The notes below the pieces were generated by a model. That model saw only the letters and a list, made by a program, of their open reading frames with translations. It ran no database searches and had not been told where the DNA came from. Positions 1 through 7,137 of a stretch of DNA of 7,137 bases are shown here, piece after piece (position 1 is the first letter of the stretch; each line of letters starts with the position of its first letter). The position numbers and the translations under genes were made by a program. Location: the NCBI GenBank assembly GCA_017400025.1, contig JAFQAF010000066.1, forward strand, positions 1-7,137. Direction: 5' to 3'. The DNA is from Oscillospiraceae bacterium. GTDB taxonomy: Bacteria; Bacillota_A; Clostridia; Oscillospirales; Ruminococcaceae.

Positions 1-2
1 AT

Positions 3-1235
3 GCACAGACCATGTCCATTTCTGAAAGTTCCGCCACACTGGCGCATCATCACAATGGTATGCAGAACTATCGCTGTATCATGTCATTGCTGGCTATTAC
101 AGGCAATATTGGCACACCAGGCGGTCAGAACCCAAGCGAGGGCCAGTTTGCTGAAAGAACCACAGGCTATGAAACACATGAAAGGGAATTCATGTTCGAA
201 ACATATCCGGAAAATGTGTACAAAGCTGTTGGCGCTGATGTTCATCCACTGTGGTATGAACTGCGCCGTGACATGCAGGCGAATGACCTGGCACAGAATA
301 TCCTGAATCAGGATGAAAAATCTATCAGGGCTCTTTATGCTCACGGCATGAACTATCGCATGTTTGCTGAAGACGGCAAAGTACTGGAAGCATTCAAAAA
401 ACTGGACTTTTTTGTTGACGTTGACCTGTTTATGACAGACAGTGCCAAATGGGCGGATATTGTACTGCCTTGCTGTACATCCCTGGAACGCAGCGAATTC
501 AAAGGCTATCCCGGTGCTCATATTATGTACACAAAACCTGTTGTACAGCCACTGGGCGAAAGCAAACGTGATGTTGACATCATTACTGAACTGGCCAATG
601 TAATGGGTATTGATGACCCTGTACTCTGTTCCGGCTATGAAAATGCTGTAAAATACATACTGCGCGATCTGCCTGTTGACCTGGACATGGTTATGGCCAG
701 TGATGACGTAATCAAAATTGACGGAGTAGGTGTAAAAGATGGCAAGTGGTATATGGAAAACGGTTGGCGCACTCCAACGGGAAAAATTGAACTTTACAGT
801 GAAGTTATCGGTGCTCATCCGGAATGGGGCCTGAATCCGCTGCCAAGCTATACACCACCGATTAACCCAGACCCCGAAAAATATCCGTTTATGCTGTGTT
901 CAGGTGCGCGCTTGCCAAATGTGCTGCATTCACGCCTTCACGGAAGTCCATGGCAGCGCAGCCTTCTGCCGGATCCTACAGTGGAAATCAATCCGGAAGA
1001 CTGCGAAAAACTGGGGATAGAAAATGGTGATGATGTTGAAATTGTTACATCTATCGGCAGCCTTACATTCAAGGCAAACCCTACACACACGGTAAAACAG
1101 GGCCAGCTGTTTGTTTACCATGGTTATCCTGAAAGAGATATAAACAGCATTATCCCATACCTAGAAATCTGCGACCCGTATTCAGGCTATCCTGCATACC
1201 GCAGCGTTTACTGCACAATAAGGAGGGTTGACTGA
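3..1235 (+). CDS. Molybdopterin oxidoreductase catalytic subunit (DMSO reductase superfamily), 5'-truncated by the window
   Basis: This is the C-terminal ~410 residues of a bis-molybdopterin-guanine-dinucleotide enzyme; the open frame begins before the window. It aligns without large gaps to the complete 707-aa paralog at 4659-6782 from about residue 300 of that protein, so roughly 299 N-terminal residues are missing, including the expected [4Fe-4S] motif and Mo ligand. Visible family features are the ESSA..HHxNGMQNYR block near the start, FFVDVDLFMTDSAKWADIVLPCCTSLER (a molybdopterin-binding stretch of this superfamily) and a C-terminal molydopterin dinucleotide-binding domain (CSGARLPNVLHSRLHG, NGDDVEIVTSIGSLTFKA). 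The stop codon shares one base with the next start (TGATG at 1233-1237), so the Fe-S subunit is translationally coupled. The substrate cannot be read from sequence. It is probably cytoplasmic, judged from the paralog, but this protein's N-terminus is not visible. Family assignment is firm; reaction unknown. Confidence -1.
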   Translation, partial: AQTMSISESSATLAHHHNGMQNYRCIMSLLAITGNIGTPGGQNPSEGQFAERTTGYETHEREFMFETYPENVYKAVGADVHPLWYELRRDMQANDLAQNILNQDEKSIRALYAHGMNYRMFAEDGKVLEAFKKLDFFVDVDLFMTDSAKWADIVLPCCTSLERSEFKGYPGAHIMYTKPVVQPLGESKRDVDIITELANVMGIDDPVLCSGYENAVKYILRDLPVDLDMVMASDDVIKIDGVGVKDGKWYMENGWRTPTGKIELYSEVIGAHPEWGLNPLPSYTPPINPDPEKYPFMLCSGARLPNVLHSRLHGSPWQRSLLPDPTVEINPEDCEKLGIENGDDVEIVTSIGSLTFKANPTHTVKQGQLFVYHGYPERDINSIIPYLEICDPYSGYPAYRSVYCTIRRVD

Positions 1236-1741
1236 TGGCTAAAAGAGTAGAACTGGATATTTCACGTTGCTGTGCCTGCGGCGCATGTTCAATTGCCTGT
1301 ATGGACCAGAACGATATTGATCTTAAAACAGGTGTCAGACCATACAGAACAGTCTTCAGACAGGAATTCAACCAGGGTGCATCCATTGAATATTATTCCA
1401 TTGCATGTATGCACTGTGAAAATGCCCCATGTGTTACAGCCTGTCCGTCCGGCGTCCTTTATAAGGATAAGGAAACCGGTCTTACCCTGTATGACAACAC
1501 CAACTGCATTGGCTGTCATAGCTGTGCTATGGCCTGTCCGTTCGGTGCACCAACTTTTGGCGAAGATGATAAAATGACCAAATGTGATGGCTGTTATGAC
1601 AGAATCAAAGCTGGTCTGCAACCGGCCTGTGTTCAGGCTTGTTTCTTCCGTGCTTTGAAAATTGTTGATGACGAAAATCCTGTTACACCGGAAAATTCAC
1701 TTATATATCAGTGTGACCAGCTGGTAAAAAGTCAGAAATAA
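1235..1741 (+). CDS. DmsB-like four-[4Fe-4S] electron-transfer subunit
   Basis: A 168-aa ferredoxin-type subunit that passes electrons to or from the molybdopterin subunit encoded just upstream. Sixteen cysteines fall into the four-cluster pattern of the DmsB/PsrB/NrfC family: C12-x2-C15-x2-C18-x3-C22; C58-x2-C61-x4-C66-x3-C70; C91-x2-C94-x2-C97-x3-C101; and C117-x2-C120 with C132-x3-C136. No signal peptide or membrane helix is visible, so a soluble cytoplasmic location is expected. The start is fixed by a strong AGGAGGG at 1221-1227, 7 nt before the ATG, and by the 1-nt overlap with the catalytic gene. By eye it is about 70% identical to the 169-aa protein at 4147-4656. A short poorly conserved tail follows the last cluster. 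No membrane anchor gene follows: the transcript runs straight into a terminator at 1751. Confidence -1.
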   Translation: MAKRVELDISRCCACGACSIACMDQNDIDLKTGVRPYRTVFRQEFNQGASIEYYSIACMHCENAPCVTACPSGVLYKDKETGLTLYDNTNCIGCHSCAMACPFGAPTFGEDDKMTKCDGCYDRIKAGLQPACVQACFFRALKIVDDENPVTPENSLIYQCDQLVKSQK

Positions 1742-1750
1742 TATTTTCAA

Positions 1751-1786
1751 AATAAAAGACGAGGTAGCGATACCTCGTCTTTTATT
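1751..1786. terminator. Bidirectional intrinsic terminator between convergent operons
   Basis: A perfect 16-bp inverted repeat (1751-1766 with 1771-1786) closes on a 4-nt GCGA loop, which has GNRA form on the + strand. The GC-rich core GACGAGGTA/TACCTCGTC is flanked by A-rich and T-rich arms, so a U-rich 3' arm is produced in both directions. It starts 9 nt after the + strand Fe-S gene stop, and its last base touches the minus-strand stop codon at 1786-1788. It can end both converging transcripts. Confidence -1.
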
Positions 1787-2886
1787 TATATCTTGCTATA
1801 ATCCTGTGGGGTGTTTATATTTTTAAACTGTTGCGGATATTTTGCTTCAACGTACCGCGTATTCACACTGTTCAGCAACTCCATCAGTCGGTAATTACCG
1901 CTGTTTATCTGCTTTTTCACCTGAGGCAGAACAATTTTTTTGTATATGCCCACAGTAGGGAACATGCGCCCGTCTGCTGAAAAGATTATAGCATCAGCAC
2001 CTGTGTCCATTTTGTCAAACAATTGAAAAATACTTTCTTCATTTACAAATGGCATATCACAAGGTATAAAAAATACATACTCTTTTTCACATCTGTCCAG
2101 AGCAGAATAAATGGCTCCCAGCGGGCCTGTATCTTTTACTTTGTCCCCTATCAGTTCACGGCCAAATCTGCTGTAGGTATTATCATTGGCTGAAATATAC
2201 TGAATATCAAAAACAGCTGAGTTGTAAATTATATGGTCAATAAAGGTATAGCCATTGTAATTCAGCAATCCCTTTGGTCTACCCATACGGCTTGATTTTC
2301 CGCCTGCAATTATCACGCAGTCACATTGCCTTATGTTTTTCATGGCGTTTCGGCGCAGCATAATACTTGTGGTTATTTCAGTTGCTTTATCCGAAAATAT
2401 CTGTCTGTCCAATCCGGTTTTATCTGTTATATAGTTTTCAATATGAGTATATAAACGGATTTTTTCATCTGTATTGCTGAAATATGCTGTTTCTATCATG
2501 GCCAGTACAGCTGAATAGTTGTCAGTGCTGTCGCCATAATGCCAGCTTTCAAAATCTATGCCATAGATTCTGTTGCCTGACAGAATAAAGTTTTTCAGAT
2601 TGATATCATCCAGTACAATGTTTTCGGTCAGCCTGTTAAACTCCTGCACAAAATCAACAACCCTTTCAAAAGCCGGAAACAGCATATTTTTATCATCAGT
2701 TATATCTGCCAGTATGTACCCGTCAATGAAACTTAACATTGAAGTTTTTTCACCACTGGCCAGCAATTCAGGGCATATATCATAGCCTTTTAACAGGTTC
2801 AGAACATACTTCTCTTTATCATATGCGATTCTGCTGTGATATTTTTTTTGTACGCCATCCTGAGTTATAATTATCTGATTTTTCAC
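1786..2886 (-). CDS. mobA: Fusion: APH/choline-kinase-like domain + MobA-type molybdenum cofactor guanylyltransferase
   Basis: A 366-aa two-domain protein. Residues ~188-366 are MobA-like and would transfer a nucleotide (GMP in classical MobA) to molybdopterin: NTP-binding loop IIAGGKSSRMGRPKG (192-206), DTGPLGAI (252-259), PCDMPF (275-280, Mg-binding Asp277), a GRMFPTVGIY segment (306-315) and FKNINTPQD (354-362). Residues ~1-160 resemble a compact aminoglycoside/choline kinase fold: a hinge-like LSFIDGYILAD (51-61), a catalytic-loop-like VLDDINLKNFIL (91-102, with D94 and N99 in HxDxxxxN positions but the His replaced by Leu), and IDFESWHYGDSTDN (110-123) matching the IDxE..xGDxxxD metal-binding motif. 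The start is GTG, supported by a 4-nt GTGA overlap with the upstream gene; no strong Shine-Dalgarno is seen, so translational coupling is likely. The MobA domain is clear; MocA-type CTP use is an alternative. Kinase activity and its substrate are inferred. Confidence -1.
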   Translation of the reverse strand: MKNQIIITQDGVQKKYHSRIAYDKEKYVLNLLKGYDICPELLASGEKTSMLSFIDGYILADITDDKNMLFPAFERVVDFVQEFNRLTENIVLDDINLKNFILSGNRIYGIDFESWHYGDSTDNYSAVLAMIETAYFSNTDEKIRLYTHIENYITDKTGLDRQIFSDKATEITTSIMLRRNAMKNIRQCDCVIIAGGKSSRMGRPKGLLNYNGYTFIDHIIYNSAVFDIQYISANDNTYSRFGRELIGDKVKDTGPLGAIYSALDRCEKEYVFFIPCDMPFVNEESIFQLFDKMDTGADAIIFSADGRMFPTVGIYKKIVLPQVKKQINSGNYRLMELLNSVNTRYVEAKYPQQFKNINTPQDYSKI

Positions 2887-3377
2887 TGTATTTTTACCAT
2901 CACTACATTTTTGGCCCAGCGTGTGGAAAATTCATCCATATTTACCACCAGCATAAAGCTACCGCTTTCCTGTGGTAAAGGCTGACCATTTTCCTGTGTG
3001 ATGATATACACGTTTTTATCGACCATTAATTCATCATATGTAAACTGTACAGCATACTGGTCAGCACATACTGCGCTTATTACAGTTGATTCTGTCAGGG
3101 CAATACCCATATCAGACAGAATATCTTTCAACTGAATACCGCTGTAATTTCTGTCGGTCACTTCGCCGTTTCTACGTTTCATCTGTGTGTCAAATGTGGT
3201 GTAACTGTCAGCTTCTTCGCTGTAGTAATACACTTTTTCTTCATCATTCACTACTATCTGCAGCTGCTTTGCATTTGCCATTTCTTCCTGCTTTTTTACA
3301 GAGTTTCTGTTGATAAATATAAGTGCTGTAACTATAGCAAGCAGTATAATCATCCATATGCTTTTCTTGTTTTTCAT
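2883..3377 (-). CDS. Membrane-anchored protein with a short sulfite-oxidase-type (Oxidored_molyb-like) domain
   Basis: A 164-aa protein with a basic N-terminus (MKNKK) followed by one hydrophobic helix at about residues 7-22, so the rest should lie outside the membrane as a single-pass or uncleaved-signal protein. Residues ~78-164 show the pattern of the C-terminal half of the SUOX molybdopterin-binding fold: YSGIQLKDILSDMGI (78-92), SAVCADQYAVQFTYDEL (101-117), VYIITQENGQPLPQESGSFMLVV (123-145) and RWAKNVVMVKI (153-163), the last resembling the family's wvK.v..I end. It is too short for a full sulfite oxidase domain, and the only cysteine (C104) is not clearly the Mo ligand, so a binding rather than catalytic role is more likely. 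The start is supported by AGAGGT about 7 nt upstream. It lies 5 nt after the S-component gene and overlaps the mobA fusion by 4 nt. Fold assignment is moderate; ligand unknown. Confidence -1.
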   Translation of the reverse strand: MKNKKSIWMIILLAIVTALIFINRNSVKKQEEMANAKQLQIVVNDEEKVYYYSEEADSYTTFDTQMKRRNGEVTDRNYSGIQLKDILSDMGIALTESTVISAVCADQYAVQFTYDELMVDKNVYIITQENGQPLPQESGSFMLVVNMDEFSTRWAKNVVMVKIQ

Positions 3378-3382
3378 AATTA

Positions 3383-3928
3383 TTACCTCTTGTTTTTCAT
3401 TGGCTGTGGAAGTCTTTCCATGATTTCATATGCGATATATCCACCAAATGCACCTGAAAGAATACCAAAGATATAAAACAGAACAAAAGGTATGACTGAA
3501 AGATGAAAATACAGTATGTTGGTAAATGCAGCCCCTGCCAGCACACCCATAGCACCAGCCAGCGACATGCGCTGCTGCATAGGCAATCTGGCAGATATAC
3601 TACTATACAGTACTATATCTATAGCTACCCCTGGCAGGGTATAGGTTATAAACACAAGTATACCTGCTGTGGCAGAAATGCCTGAGCCAAGTGAAATAAC
3701 CGCCTGCACCAGTCCCATTAGTGCCCCGGTGCCTTTTTTCTGTATATATGCAGCACCGAAAACTATAAACAGCATACTGAAGCCTGCTGTTACACTGCCA
3801 CCGGGAATTCTTATGAAATCCGTCAACAGATTGAATACCGGTGAAACCAGTGGTTTTATAAATATACCCAACACTGCCAGAAAGGCCATAAGGCATATTT
3901 CATATGTTGTAAAATGTTGTTTTTTCAT
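3383..3928 (-). CDS. ECF-type transporter substrate-binding (S) component, likely substrate Moco-related or a vitamin
   Basis: A 181-aa, almost wholly hydrophobic protein with about six membrane segments (roughly residues 9-30, 45-64, 67-82, 86-110, 122-141, 145-169), the size and topology of ECF S components. The ALMGLVQAVISLGSG stretch after a short cytoplasmic KKG loop, and the FIRIPGGSVTAGFSMLF segment, recall this class. No ATPase (A) or T component lies in the window, so it would share a module encoded elsewhere (group II ECF). The frame is open upstream to 4054, but that extension is the structured RNA leader; the ATG at 3926-3928 is chosen because it has GGAGA 5 nt upstream, sits just after the terminator, and gives a normal-length S component. 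Its substrate cannot be read from sequence. Operon partners (SUOX-like binding domain, kinase-MobA fusion) suggest a pterin or Moco precursor; a thiamin-type or other vitamin substrate remains possible. Confidence -1.
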   Translation of the reverse strand: MKKQHFTTYEICLMAFLAVLGIFIKPLVSPVFNLLTDFIRIPGGSVTAGFSMLFIVFGAAYIQKKGTGALMGLVQAVISLGSGISATAGILVFITYTLPGVAIDIVLYSSISARLPMQQRMSLAGAMGVLAGAAFTNILYFHLSVIPFVLFYIFGILSGAFGGYIAYEIMERLPQPMKNKR

Positions 3929-3933
3929 TTCAA

Positions 3934-3938
3934 TCTCC
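3934..3938 (-). promoter_or_regulatory. Ribosome binding site fixing the S-component start
   Basis: On the minus strand, GGAGA precedes the ATG at 3928 by 5 nt. It lies immediately 3' of the terminator U-tract, so it exists only in transcripts that read through the hairpin. It decides the 181-aa start over the longer open frame that runs back through the leader. Confidence -1.
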
Positions 3939-3972
3939 AAAATAAACGGGCATATCCTGAAAAGATATGCCC
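3939..3972 (-). terminator. Intrinsic terminator of the leader (probable riboswitch expression platform)
   Basis: Read on the minus strand, a perfect 9-bp stem GGGCAUAUC/GAUAUGCCC (3972-3964 with 3956-3948) with a 7-nt loop is followed by a U-rich run (UUUAUUUU, 3946-3939). It ends just before the Shine-Dalgarno of the S-component gene and 11 nt before its ATG. A terminator in this position, inside an otherwise continuous gene array, implies conditional read-through into the last three genes. Confidence -1.
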
Positions 3973-3975
3973 AAA

Positions 3976-4125
3976 CAGACCTTTCATCGAAAGGCCTGCG
4001 GTATTTCTTTTCAAATTGCATAATGCGGGAAGGCGAAGTTGTTTCCTTCTTCACCCCGGAAGCTGAATTAACAGCTTCGTCATACAGGCCATGGCAAAGG
4101 CTGTAGGCCTGTATGCTCGAAATAC
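3976..4125 (-). promoter_or_regulatory. Structured RNA leader, candidate Moco-family riboswitch
   Basis: On the minus strand a closed multi-branch RNA can be drawn by hand. P1 is GUAUUUC/GAAAUAC (4125-4119 with 4007-4001). Inside it lie a perfect 10-bp hairpin (4115-4106 with 4090-4081, 15-nt loop), a perfect 7-bp hairpin (4078-4072 with 4065-4059), and a compound hairpin (CGGG/CCCG plus GUGAAG/CUUCGC, 4058-4049 with 4038-4026) tipped by a GAAA tetraloop (4045-4042). A further 10-bp hairpin (3998-3989 with 3985-3976) leads into the terminator. This is a typical aptamer plus expression-platform layout. Moco family membership is suggested by the GNRA-capped GGUGAA...UUCGCC arm followed by UCCCGC, which fits my recollection of that class, and by Moco genes on both sides. 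TPP, FMN and cobalamin cores are not seen. Structured regulatory RNA: fairly sure; ligand: tentative. Confidence -1.
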
Positions 4126-4146
4126 AATATTAAATTGTAAGATTTA

Positions 4147-4656
4147 TTATTTCTGACTTTCTGCCAGCTGCCGGCACTGTTTTACCAGTGAAACATCTTC
4201 CGGAACAGGGTTGTTTTTATCATCAACCAGCATCAGCGCGCCAAAGGAACAGCCACGTACACAGGCAGGTTCCAGCCCTGCTCTGATACGGTTGATACAG
4301 CCGTCACATTTTTTCATTTTGCCGTCAGGACCAAACGTTGGTGCGCCAAAAGGACAAGCCATTGCGCAACTGTGGCATCCGATGCAGTATTCAGTGTTGA
4401 ACAGTGTCAGTCCAGTTTCAGTATCCTTGTACAGACAGCCGGATGGACAGGCAGTTACACAAGGTGCGTTGTCACAGTGCATACAGGACATTGAATAATA
4501 TTCAATCAGGCCCAGATCTCTTGTTTCCTGTCTGAACACCATTCTGAATGGGCGCACACCTGTGGAAAGATCTATATCGTTCTGGTCCATACAGGCAACA
4601 GCGCATGCACCGCAGGCACAGCAGCGGGATATATCAAGTTCAAGTTTCAATGCCAT
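4147..4656 (-). CDS. DmsB-like four-[4Fe-4S] electron-transfer subunit (second copy)
   Basis: A 169-aa ferredoxin-type partner of the 707-aa molybdopterin subunit, encoded 2 nt downstream of that gene's stop. The sixteen cluster cysteines match the paralog: C12/C15/C18/C22, C58/C61/C66/C70, C91/C94/C97/C101 and C117/C120/C132/C136. There is an extra cysteine at C74 and, as in the other copy, one at C13. It has no signal sequence or membrane helix. AGGAGG at 4670-4665, within the last codons of the upstream gene, sets the ATG start at 4656. Only 21 nt separate its stop from the first base of the P1 stem of the riboswitch-like leader, with no terminator of its own, so transcription probably runs on into that leader. 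Divergence from the + strand copy (about 70% identity by eye) is concentrated at residues 45-50 and in the C-terminal tail. Confidence -1.
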   Translation of the reverse strand: MALKLELDISRCCACGACAVACMDQNDIDLSTGVRPFRMVFRQETRDLGLIEYYSMSCMHCDNAPCVTACPSGCLYKDTETGLTLFNTEYCIGCHSCAMACPFGAPTFGPDGKMKKCDGCINRIRAGLEPACVRGCSFGALMLVDDKNNPVPEDVSLVKQCRQLAESQK

Positions 4657-4658
4657 TT

Positions 4659-6782
4659 TTATTTCCTCCTGATGTAACAGTAAGCACTGCGGTATGCCGG
4701 AAATCCTGTATATGGATCAAGATTTGTACCATCCAGAATACTGTTGATGTCCAGCTCGCGGTAACCGTGATATATAAATACTTCGCCTTTCTGTACAGTG
4801 GCTGTTGGAATAGCTTTGAAAGTAAGTGATCCGATATTTGTTACAATTTCAACATCGTCACCCAGTTCAATACCATATTCGTCTGCGTCTTCCATGCTCA
4901 TTTCTACTGATGGGTCAGGCAGAAGGTGTCTTTCCCACGGCATATCATGCAGACGTGAGTGCAATGCATTTGGAATACGTGTGCCTGCACACAGCAGGAA
5001 CGGGTATTTTTCTCTATCCGGGTTGAATGGAGGTGTATATGTAGGCAGTGCATCCAGTCCCCACTGCGGGTTGTCTGCAATCAGTTTTGAATACAGTTCC
5101 AGTTTGCCGGTAGGAGTATCAAAGCCTTTTTCCAAAGTGCTGCCATAGCGATATGGCGGTATACCCTGCAGCTTTATCGGATGAGGGGCCGCTTTCAGCT
5201 GATCTATTGTAACCGGCAGATCCTGAATAATATATTCAATACATTTTTCGTATCCGCCGCACAGCAGCTCGTCGTCCATACCCATTCTGTTTGCCAAAAG
5301 TGAAAGAATATCACAGTCAGATTTTGCTTCTCCCAGCGGTTCGACAACAGGATTTGTATACCATATAAACTGGCCTGGATAGGTTTTCAGTTCGCCTCGT
5401 TCCATGGATGTGCATGCCGGCAACACGATATCTGCCCATTTAGCTGTATCGGTCATAAACAGATCTACATCAACAAAAAAATCCAGCTTTTTGAAAGCTT
5501 CCAGATAGTTGTTGTCACCTGCAAACATTCTGTAATTCATACCCAATGCAAATATAGCTTTTACTGATTCTTCATCCTGACGCAGTATATTGAACGCCAG
5601 ATCATTTGCCTGCATATCACCGCGCAGTTCATACCACAGCGGGTGTTCTTTTGCACCTATAGCAGGTTTGCCGTTGTGAGGATATTTTTCATCCATAAAG
5701 TGTTCTTCTCTTGTGGCAAAACCACAGTCACGTTCCATAAAGGTGTGTGTGATAGGTTTTTGGCCGCCTTTTTTGTCAAAATTGCCGGTGATAACCAGCA
5801 ATGACATTATAGCGCGGTAGTTCTGCATGCCGTTTGTATGGTGTCCCATAGGTGCAGAACTTTCTGTAATACAGCAGCTGCCGGCCTGGTGAATCATTTC
5901 AGCAGCTTTTATAATGTCAGCAGCTGGTACACCTGTCAGTTCCTGACCCTTTTCCGGTGGGAACTGTGCAACATAGGCTGCATATTCTTCATAGCCGTAA
6001 ACGTATTTTTCGATAAATTCCTTATCAATCCAGCCATTGCTGATAAGTACATTGGCAATGGATAAGGCCAGCGCGCCGTCTGTGCCCAAATGCGGGCGCA
6101 GATGCAGATCTGCCAGGCGTTTTGTGGTAGGTGTGATACGCGGATCAACTATAATCAGCTTCATACCGCGTTCTTTGCCTTTTTCCATACCGCCCACCAT
6201 AGGGAAGCGGGAGAAATAACTGTTTGTGCCCCAGCCTATAAACAGATCGGTATTGGCCATATCCTGCAGCATATGATGCTGGGCGATTGTCTGCCATGCC
6301 ATAACACCACTGGTGAAGCAGCTGGATGATTCAGTGCCATAGTTCTGTGTGCCAAAGGCGTTTGCAAAACGTCGGAACATAAAGCGATACCACTTGCTGT
6401 AGCCGGAGTAAAAAGCCACCCGGTCAGGACCGTACTTGTTTTTTATACCCATCAGTTTCTCTGCAATTGTATCAATAGCCTCTTCCCAGCTGATTGGCTC
6501 AAACTTGCCTTCGCCTCTTTCTCCAACACGTTTCAGCGGTGTCAGCAGTCTGTCTTCCCTGTAGAGATACTGTCTGTTGGCGGCACCTTTGGTACATAAT
6601 TTACCTTTGTTCTGCGGATGTTCCTTTGTGCCTTCAACTTTAATGATTTTGCCGTCTTTCACATAAACATCCAACCCGCAGTGCATACCAGGCGTACAGA
6701 TATCGCACACAGAATGGCGTATTTCTATGCCGCTTTCTTCGCCGGGAACTTTGCCTTTCAGATAATCTATATTATTTGACAT
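4659..6782 (-). CDS. Molybdopterin oxidoreductase catalytic subunit (DMSO reductase superfamily), cytoplasmic
   Basis: A complete 707-aa bis-MGD enzyme. The N-terminal iron-sulfur motif is C26-x2-C29-x5-C35 ... C63 (CDICTPGMHCG ... GKLCTKG), likely a [4Fe-4S] site; the x5 spacing differs from the common x3. NYGTESSSCFTSGVMAW (147-163) places C155 where NapA-like enzymes carry the Mo-ligating Cys (inferred). Cofactor-binding features follow: GWGTN (184-188), IVDPRITPTTKRLADLHLRPHLGTDGALALS (211-241), TAKWADIVLPACTSMER (446-462), and a C-terminal dinucleotide-binding domain (~594-707). No twin-Arg signal is present. ATG at 6782 has GGAGGG 8 nt upstream (6796-6791), and the gene overlaps the upstream FAD oxidoreductase gene by 11 nt; the Fe-S gene follows by 2 nt. 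It could reduce, dehydroxylate or transhydroxylate a small substrate, as cytoplasmic relatives do; which one cannot be told. Family assignment very secure. Confidence -1.
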   Translation of the reverse strand: MSNNIDYLKGKVPGEESGIEIRHSVCDICTPGMHCGLDVYVKDGKIIKVEGTKEHPQNKGKLCTKGAANRQYLYREDRLLTPLKRVGERGEGKFEPISWEEAIDTIAEKLMGIKNKYGPDRVAFYSGYSKWYRFMFRRFANAFGTQNYGTESSSCFTSGVMAWQTIAQHHMLQDMANTDLFIGWGTNSYFSRFPMVGGMEKGKERGMKLIIVDPRITPTTKRLADLHLRPHLGTDGALALSIANVLISNGWIDKEFIEKYVYGYEEYAAYVAQFPPEKGQELTGVPAADIIKAAEMIHQAGSCCITESSAPMGHHTNGMQNYRAIMSLLVITGNFDKKGGQKPITHTFMERDCGFATREEHFMDEKYPHNGKPAIGAKEHPLWYELRGDMQANDLAFNILRQDEESVKAIFALGMNYRMFAGDNNYLEAFKKLDFFVDVDLFMTDTAKWADIVLPACTSMERGELKTYPGQFIWYTNPVVEPLGEAKSDCDILSLLANRMGMDDELLCGGYEKCIEYIIQDLPVTIDQLKAAPHPIKLQGIPPYRYGSTLEKGFDTPTGKLELYSKLIADNPQWGLDALPTYTPPFNPDREKYPFLLCAGTRIPNALHSRLHDMPWERHLLPDPSVEMSMEDADEYGIELGDDVEIVTNIGSLTFKAIPTATVQKGEVFIYHGYRELDINSILDGTNLDPYTGFPAYRSAYCYIRRK

Positions 6783-7137
6783 TAGCTTTTCCCTCCATTT
6801 TTTCTATAAATGATGGTCTTAACCCTTCTTTGATAAGTATACCTTTCTGAATTGGTGACAATGTGGTGTTTTTGCCTTCGATTATTCTGTACAGATAGTT
6901 TTTAACTGTGCCGCTGATACGGTAGTTATCCAAAATATTCACACCTGCCAGCCCATTTTCACCAATAACTGCTTCAACATACAGGCCTTTGTCAATGTGA
7001 CCGCTGGTCACTACCTGTCCTGTCAGTCGGTTGTCGCCAAATCCGATAAAGTCCATATCCATAAAATGCGTGATGTTGTGCATAAAGTTGCCTTCAAAGC
7101 TGGCAACAGCACCTGCCATATTTGCACCGGCTGTAAT
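6772..7137 (-). CDS. FAD/NAD(P)H-dependent oxidoreductase (pyridine nucleotide-disulfide type), C-terminal part, 5'-truncated by the window
   Basis: About 121 C-terminal residues; the open frame continues past the window edge, so the ATG at 7119 is not a real start. The fragment opens with ITAGANMAGAV, the FAD-proximal end of class-I pyridine-nucleotide oxidoreductases (AGxNMAG, as in NirB-, rubredoxin- and ferredoxin-reductase-like proteins). It continues with a C-terminal domain (FEGNFMHNITHFMDMDFIGFGD ... GLAGVNILDNY) of the kind that follows the two Rossmann domains. It overlaps the molybdopterin gene by 11 nt, so the two are surely co-translated. The likely role is to carry electrons between NAD(P)H and the Fe-S/Mo subunits, an inference from context. 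The N-terminal FAD and NAD sites lie outside the window. Confidence -1.
   Translation of the reverse strand: MTAGANMAGAVASFEGNFMHNITHFMDMDFIGFGDNRLTGQVVTSGHIDKGLYVEAVIGENGLAGVNILDNYRISGTVKNYLYRIIEGKNTTLSPIQKGILIKEGLRPSFIEKMEGKANVK

Follow-up and report, generated by a model that had tools for sequence, protein, structure and literature searches.

A stretch of 7,137 nucleotides (nt) from an Oscillospiraceae bacterium (GenBank assembly GCA_017400025.1, contig JAFQAF010000066.1, positions 1 to 7,137 of the forward strand; called the window below) carries on its minus strand a set of three genes whose possible part in the salvage of the molybdenum cofactor (Moco) is considered here. This cassette consists of the genes for the S component of an energy-coupling factor (ECF)-type transporter (3383–3928, 181 amino acids, aa), for a SUOX-fold (Oxidored_molyb) protein anchored by a single transmembrane segment (2883–3377, 164 aa) and for a fusion of a protein-kinase-like domain (2332–2886, residues ~1–185) with a MobA nucleotidyltransferase domain (1786–2331, residues ~186–366). 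The S gene starts at 3928 and a gap of 5 nt separates it from the SUOX-like gene, which the fusion gene overlaps by 4 nt. The coordinates and the profile matches given below confirm the three tightly packed genes described in an initial annotation, which had been made from the sequence alone.

Genes and leader of the cassette

The S component matches PF09819 (E 8.8e-7; 29.5 bits against a cut-off of 25.2) and has 84 relatives. Its predicted model has the S-component fold of about six helices, and the nearest fold is that of YkoE (PDB 5edl). The residues that contact thiamine in YkoE are given in the accessible part of PMC5037267; in a weak profile alignment four of them, Trp49, Glu77, Gln95 and Tyr46, are replaced by Ser51, Ser79, Pro99 and Ala48, and the fifth, Asp131, lies where the alignment is gapped. 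Trp is absent from the window protein, as it is from 19 of the 57 rows of its alignment (A6). Neither of the ykoDC genes lies in the window, nor do EcfA or EcfT genes, and the leader holds the riboswitch RF01055 instead of a THI box. The initial annotation had held that its proposal would fall if the S component grouped with a characterised vitamin family such as ThiT or YkoE and kept the ligand residues; the likeness to YkoE is present in the fold, the thiamine-contact residues are not kept, and no tree was built. We infer that the ligand is Moco or molybdopterin and that transport is inward. Searches of PDB sequences with the S and SUOX profiles gave no relevant match. Spread of the cassette on plasmids was discarded, as the S component had no match in the plasmid collection. 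More distant relatives of the S component (P0077–P0083, 32–39% identity, P0083 being named from Cloacimonetes) keep an IPGGS motif in the five that were examined.

The second protein has a Lys-rich start, one hydrophobic N-terminal segment and then the SUOX domain (PF00174, E 1.1e-8; 35.3 bits against a cut-off of 24, positions 58–159 of 169), for which 42 relatives were found. The match and the single hydrophobic segment bear out the earlier description of a membrane-anchored SUOX-type protein, whose domain should face the outside of the cell. A DEFSTRW block is invariant in the 21 aligned rows, as is the sole cysteine, C104, the one residue that could correspond to the Mo-ligating Cys of sulphite-oxidase enzymes; it lies late in the domain and is absent in the divergent proteins of L017–L019; the divergent L017 copy scores 19.3 bits with PF00174, under the cut-off. 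Judged from the fold, the protein may bind the cofactor outside the cytoplasm.

In the fusion, the MobA half shows both the NTP_transf_3 domain and the MobA structure. The best NCBIfam MobA models remain under their cut-offs (116.7 against 164, 114.2 against 182 and 109.8 against 151.85 bits), and this half is, on sequence grounds, a divergent MobA. The kinase half of the window fusion has no Pfam match; its model is mostly above 90 in pLDDT (predicted local distance difference test), the NCBIfam Bud32 profile matches it weakly (E 0.005, far under the cut-off) and PRPK appears at Foldseek rank 50. The catalytic residues K14, E25, D94 and D111 are kept in all 16 kinase-type cassette fusions, and N99 in 15 of them. 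The 50 VIA rows listed for the fusion span residues 177–366 only, which is not the kinase half. The fusion gene of L003 (L003:11024-12171) is found in two overlapping frames of 273 and 110 aa, the result of a frameshift or of a sequencing error.

The leader reads, on the minus strand, first through an RF01055 Moco riboswitch aptamer (4134–3988; 65.3 bits, gathering score 36, E 2.1e-14) and then through an intrinsic terminator hairpin (3973–3947; 12 pairs, 5 G-C, tail TTTATTTT), which is likely the expression platform of the riboswitch. What the initial annotation called a conditional terminator is thus this riboswitch with its terminator. The piece 3945–4000, comprising the terminator and one further hairpin, folds at -31.3 kcal/mol (z -7.0). 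The aptamer has a P3 hairpin of 7 bp, and each of the 18 aligned aptamers (the window and 17 loci, L007 being left out) has a hairpin of 4–7 bp where P3 lies; short stems of this kind also arise by chance. According to the part of PMC2408646 available, RNAs that contain P3 go with Moco and those that lack it mostly with the tungsten cofactor (Tuco); by its P3 stem the window aptamer is of the Moco type. The 3′ strand of the aptamer is complementary to the terminator region over 8–12 nt; between 1 and 124 of 200 shuffles, according to locus, gave as long a match, and an antiterminator is plausible. The riboswitch would permit transcription when Moco is low.

Linkage of the three genes and cofactor synthesis in their genomes

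The contigs of 84,980 species were scanned with the S-component alignment A3 by way of two peptide patterns, a procedure by which more distant relatives would be missed, and 22 loci were obtained. Profile searches place the S component, the SUOX-like protein and the MobA fusion together in 21 of them, and in the exception, L014, the contig breaks off within the S gene. Sixteen loci have the order S, SUOX, fusion, whereas L017 and L019–L021 have the order fusion, S, SUOX; L018 shares the latter order, with a spacer of 640 nt. The co-occurrence anticipated by the initial annotation is therefore found, with the amendment that in the five fusion-first loci (L017–L021) the partner of MobA is not the kinase-like domain; here MobA is followed in 5/5 by a P-loop domain, PF03266 NTPase_1 (E 1e-21 to 1.7e-28). 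Distances among the S, SUOX and fusion proteins correlate across 15 cassettes (Spearman 0.56–0.68; L003, L015 and L017–L021 left out), which may reflect only the relatedness of the species. That the genes are chance neighbours is excluded by the recurrence of the trio.

RF01055 lies upstream of the cassette in 18 of the 22 loci, and two of the remaining four, L011 and L015, are contigs that start inside the S gene. These counts bear on the proposal that the S component is a YkoE- or ThiT-like transporter of thiamine or hydroxymethylpyrimidine (HMP) that stands here by chance. The PF09819 match and the nearest fold speak for such a transporter, but the riboswitch of these 18 loci is not a THI box, the partners are constant in 21 loci and the contact residues are replaced in a protein without Trp; the proposal was rejected on these three grounds, and it has very little probability.

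The 22 loci represent 21 genomes, since L014 belongs to the same metagenome-assembled genome (MAG; isolate RGIG505) as L011. A molybdenum/tungsten (Mo/W) enzyme with PF00384 is found in 20 of the 21, G014 having none, and an EcfT protein (PF02361) is found over the cut-off in all. In contrast to this, MoaA (PF06463), MoaC (PF01967) and MoaE (PF02391) are each found in 3/21 genomes, MoeA (PF03453) in 1/21 (G008) and ModB (TIGR02141) over its cut-off in 3/21, weaker matches to other ABC permeases being present in 21/21. The positives for MoaA, MoaC, MoaE and ModB are the same three genomes, G008, G018 and G020. In the other 18, none of the five markers was found, and 17 of these 18 retain PF00384 and all of them EcfT. 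PF00994 is present in 14 of the 21 genomes, beside moa genes only in G008, G018 and G020; the remaining full matches lie in frames of 276–1149 aa, which we take to be of CinA size, and there are three weak, partial matches below the cut-off in G002–G004. Judged by frame size, no MogA-like PF00994 match over the cut-off was recognised in the 18 genomes. In none of the 21 genomes does anything other than the fusion (in two pieces in G003) match the MobA domain above 30 bits. The absence of moaA, moaC and moaE from cassette-bearing strains, which the initial annotation had singled out, is therefore the case in most of them, and the carriers are mostly gut bacteria that are seemingly unable to make Moco and yet possess Moco-dependent enzymes.

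The background consisted of the 295 genomes of the order of Hydrogenoanaerobacterium saccharovorans An564 (L016, G015), with the Solobacterium relatives outside it. MoaC occurs in 41/295 and PF00384 in 19/295 of these, and 12 of the 19 have MoaC. Among PF00384-positive genomes, MoaC is thus present in 3 of 20 with the cassette against 12 of 18 in the background (G015 left out; Fisher p 0.0023). Among the matches listed by E-value there are 2 full-length fusions in the 295 genomes (G015 and G105); of the seven background genomes that are PF00384-positive and MoaC-negative, only G015 has the fusion.

Incompleteness of the MAGs could produce the missing moa genes as an artefact, an explanation that draws on their unstated completeness and on the pair G008 and G012 discussed below, where it may have occurred. 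It is quite improbable as a general account, because the same 18 genomes lack all five markers while 17 of them keep PF00384 and all keep EcfT, and because An564, whose strain record is not marked as a MAG, is one of the 18.

A candidate route of cofactor salvage

Taken together, the cassette is probably a Moco salvage system, by which dephosphorylated and likely Mo-loaded molybdopterin would be imported, re-phosphorylated and supplied with guanosine monophosphate (GMP). When Moco in the cytoplasm is low, the riboswitch would let transcription proceed. The SUOX-fold anchor would catch or present the cofactor outside the cell, and the S component, energised by the shared EcfA/A′/T module, would import dephosphorylated molybdopterin, probably with its metal already in place. 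The kinase half would then restore the terminal phosphate of the imported pterin and the MobA half would add GMP, so that the neighbouring dimethyl sulphoxide (DMSO)-reductase-family enzyme receives the cofactor in its guanine-dinucleotide form. This agrees with the proposal of the initial annotation that a dephosphorylated molybdopterin or related pterin is imported, phosphorylated and nucleotidylated, and the Moco riboswitch sharpens it.

The gene content of the carriers narrows the imported compound. As 18 of 21 genomes lack MoaE, uptake of cyclic pyranopterin monophosphate (cPMP) would be useless and is disfavoured, so the compound must already carry the dithiolene. An S component for molybdate was discarded likewise, being of no help to cells without moaA, moaC and moaE. 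Import of a simpler pterin or precursor by bacteria that possess an unrecognised molybdopterin synthesis is improbable. The missing genes do leave room for others, and new biosynthetic components are named as one option for orphan molybdoproteins in the portion of PMC6147048 available; however, no gene of the cassette is a candidate for inserting sulphur or forming the dithiolene, and cells lacking MoaE could not process cPMP further.

With no MoeA, recognised ModB or MogA, the imported compound probably carries its metal as well, TupB and WtpB not having been searched separately. It is possible, though doubtful, that the cassette imports metal-free dephospho-molybdopterin and that Mo or W enters separately and is inserted by an unrecognised route. 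Import at the molybdopterin level would account for the loss of moaA, moaC and moaE equally well, and insertion of Mo without MoeA and MogA is described for E. coli at high molybdate. Entry of molybdate through sulphate transporters is also reported in E. coli, in the available text of PMC2408646. Against metal-free import stand the lack of MoeA in 20/21 genomes and of ModB over its cut-off in 18/21, together with the MogA result. As to the compound named in the initial annotation, the molybdopterin level thus stands, and a metal-loaded form is likelier than the bare pterin.

Retention of MobA implies that the cell still adds the nucleotide itself, and a kinase ahead of MobA would be understandable if the compound enters the cell unphosphorylated, in the manner of many imported vitamins. 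Phosphorylation finds its best indirect support in the NTPase_1 replacement. By sequence, NTPase_1 and the kinase-like domain appear to be unrelated, yet both are ATP-binding domains that take the same place next to MobA, which suggests that guanylylation must be preceded by one ATP-dependent step. A different role is conceivable for the kinase-like half and the SUOX-fold protein, namely as regulators or chaperones of cofactor insertion, with no pterin being phosphorylated. Bud32/RIO-type kinases can act on proteins, and no small-molecule kinase of this subfamily was identified in the present analysis. Such a role is unlikely, since the de novo pathway is not found in 18/21 genomes and since an unrelated ATP-binding domain takes the place of the kinase in five loci.

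The fusion of G105 (L025 / L034:14415-15578) is of full length and lies outside any cassette. Its contig (L034) also encodes an ABC ATPase and MoeA, and the 19.5 of 21.1 kb that were read contain neither an S nor a SUOX gene. D94 and N99 are both His, so that this is, from its residues, a probable dead kinase. Since G105 is moa-positive, loss of kinase activity in a genome that has retained synthesis would agree with the salvage model, as one case only.

Several observations weigh against the salvage reading. The completeness of the MAGs, which make up nearly all cassette genomes, is not stated. In G008 the cassette, with intact kinase residues, occurs together with a complete moa/moeA/modABC region whose G+C content resembles that of the cassette contig (0.498 and 0.501). 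This contig (L008) and the cassette contig of G012 (L012), a smaller MAG scored without moa genes, share 96.6% identity over 8.3 kb. Salvage and synthesis may thus coexist in at least one species, and the absence in G012 may be incompleteness. G018 and G020 have moaA, moaC, moaE and modB with a divergent cassette, no MoeA_N being found in either. L009 has Gly in place of N99 although its genome, G009, is without moa genes, and two relatives assessed without their gene context, P0125 and P0177, have lost kinase residues. L009 and L018 have no RF01055 at gathering scores; the spacer before S was empty also at a relaxed threshold, and the leader of the L018 fusion gene was searched at gathering scores only. 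The match of the SUOX domain misses the first third of the profile, its first 57 positions being unmatched. PF03266 is an NTPase by annotation, so phosphorylation of a pterin by this domain is a guess. Finally, the PF00384 proteins of the background genomes G022 and G221 may not be Mo enzymes.

Adjoining the cassette, and probably the consumers of its product, are the genes of a DmsB-like 4Fe-4S subunit (4147–4656, minus strand; PF13247, E 2.5e-22; TIGR02951 under its cut-off) and of a Mo/W catalytic subunit of the DMSO-reductase family (4659–6782, minus strand, 707 aa; PF00384, E 6e-50, PF01568 and PF04879), in which the Cys of a YGTESSSC motif presumably occupies the expected place of the metal ligand. 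A probable flavin/NAD(P) oxidoreductase of the same operon is represented by its C-terminal part, as the window end truncates it (6772–7137, minus strand). It has no Pfam match of its own and clusters with just two other open reading frames, both at locus starts; its position corresponds to that of a PF07992 protein preceding the Mo enzyme in L006 and L016. On the plus strand lie a second Mo/W catalytic subunit truncated by the window start (12–1235; PF00384 and PF01568) and its 4Fe-4S subunit (1235–1741; PF13247, E 8.7e-24). The cassette is thus flanked on opposite strands by two related Mo/W enzyme operons (12–1741 and 4147–6782), whose catalytic subunits are ~62% identical over their common part. 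An inverted repeat with A-/T-rich flanks (1747–1791) lies between the 4Fe-4S and fusion genes, which converge, and probably terminates transcription from both sides; a mir-71 match to this repeat and snoRNA matches in the window, all far under gathering scores, were discarded.

Relatives of the kinase-like domain are also found free-standing. In three genomes such proteins of 217–222 aa (L036:2333-3001, L041:5334-6002 and L042:631-1284) adjoin a gene that we take to be ApbE-like. At L035:6265-9809 (G221:C1) and L043:5050-6816 a relative of 224 aa is preceded by genes for MobB, EcfT and two EcfA-like proteins. It sits in a fragmented, MoaC-negative MAG, read in part, with an aldehyde ferredoxin oxidoreductase, presumably of the tungsten type, and with no MobA-domain match among the matches listed. 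This arrangement is perhaps a second layout of Moco salvage, for an enzyme that needs no nucleotide.

Comparison with known systems

A wider reading may be offered tentatively. Finished, metal-loaded Moco could be a vitamin for a guild of gut bacteria, with the S component as importer, the SUOX-fold protein as a receptor taking Moco from released Mo proteins and the kinase-MobA or MobA-NTPase_1 enzyme re-arming a cofactor trimmed by phosphatases, and this could explain part of the genomes with orphan molybdoproteins. If true, a bacterial importer with a re-arming enzyme would give a mechanism for cross-feeding of Moco in the gut, would make the questions of orphan molybdoproteins and of the passage of Moco across membranes directly testable and would provide tools for Moco delivery. 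The kinase-MobA fusion and its unrelated replacement predict a chemical form that can be searched for, the dephosphorylated cofactor.

The orphan-molybdoprotein organisms listed in PMC6147048 (Table 2), 305 bacteria and 5 archaea, resemble the cassette genomes in combining Mo enzymes with the lack of a complete Moco pathway, and most of them have no Mo transporters. The portion of that paper at hand states that almost all Moco users make Moco themselves and leaves the cause of the exceptions open; new biosynthetic components or Mo-independent forms are suggested there, with no uptake system offered. In the accessible part of PMC9793310, free Moco is described as highly unstable, and C. elegans as using dietary, protein-stabilised Moco, whose passage across membranes is posed as an open question. 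The worm is, like the cassette carriers, an organism that uses Moco made by others, the difference being that it is an animal supplied with protein-stabilised Moco. Some T11SS outer-membrane proteins of Proteobacteria are proposed for molybdopterin uptake, a speculation from co-occurrence in which no S component, kinase or MobA fusion is mentioned in the available text (PMC12282271), and in the part of PMC3423039 at hand a model solution in which E. coli takes up Moco is regarded as unrealistic. In PMC9674144 the corresponding terms occur only in unrelated places. Among the titles and abstracts of the matches listed, with subscription papers and preprints outside the scope, no bacterial importer of Moco or molybdopterin is described; the statement of the initial annotation that no such uptake system was known thus holds within these limits, the T11SS proposal in the accessible text of PMC12282271 being speculation only.

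The leader resembles the Moco riboswitch regulon (Regulski 2008, PMC2408646) in having RF01055 with P3 and a terminator-type platform. In the part of that paper available, the regulon comprises molybdate transporters, Moco synthesis and Moco enzymes, with no cofactor importer named. The nearest transporters are those of ECF vitamin uptake, in particular YkoE (YkoEDC, PDB 5edl) and S components of group II, for example ThiT. YkoE is under THI-box control, whereas the cassette has the Moco riboswitch, replaced ligand residues, a SUOX-fold anchor and a kinase-MobA fusion as partners and no EcfA/T genes in the window.

For the fusion, the closest likeness is with NadR and CobU, bifunctional salvage enzymes that unite a kinase and a nucleotidyltransferase in one polypeptide. 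The cassette enzyme has the same combination and differs in that its nucleotidyltransferase is MobA, the Moco guanylyltransferase, and that the partner domain is either Bud32-like or NTPase_1; no such enzyme acting on Moco appeared in the literature searched. All parts of the cassette thus belong to known superfamilies and its logic is that of ECF uptake combined with kinase-nucleotidyltransferase salvage, while the class of substrate would be new.

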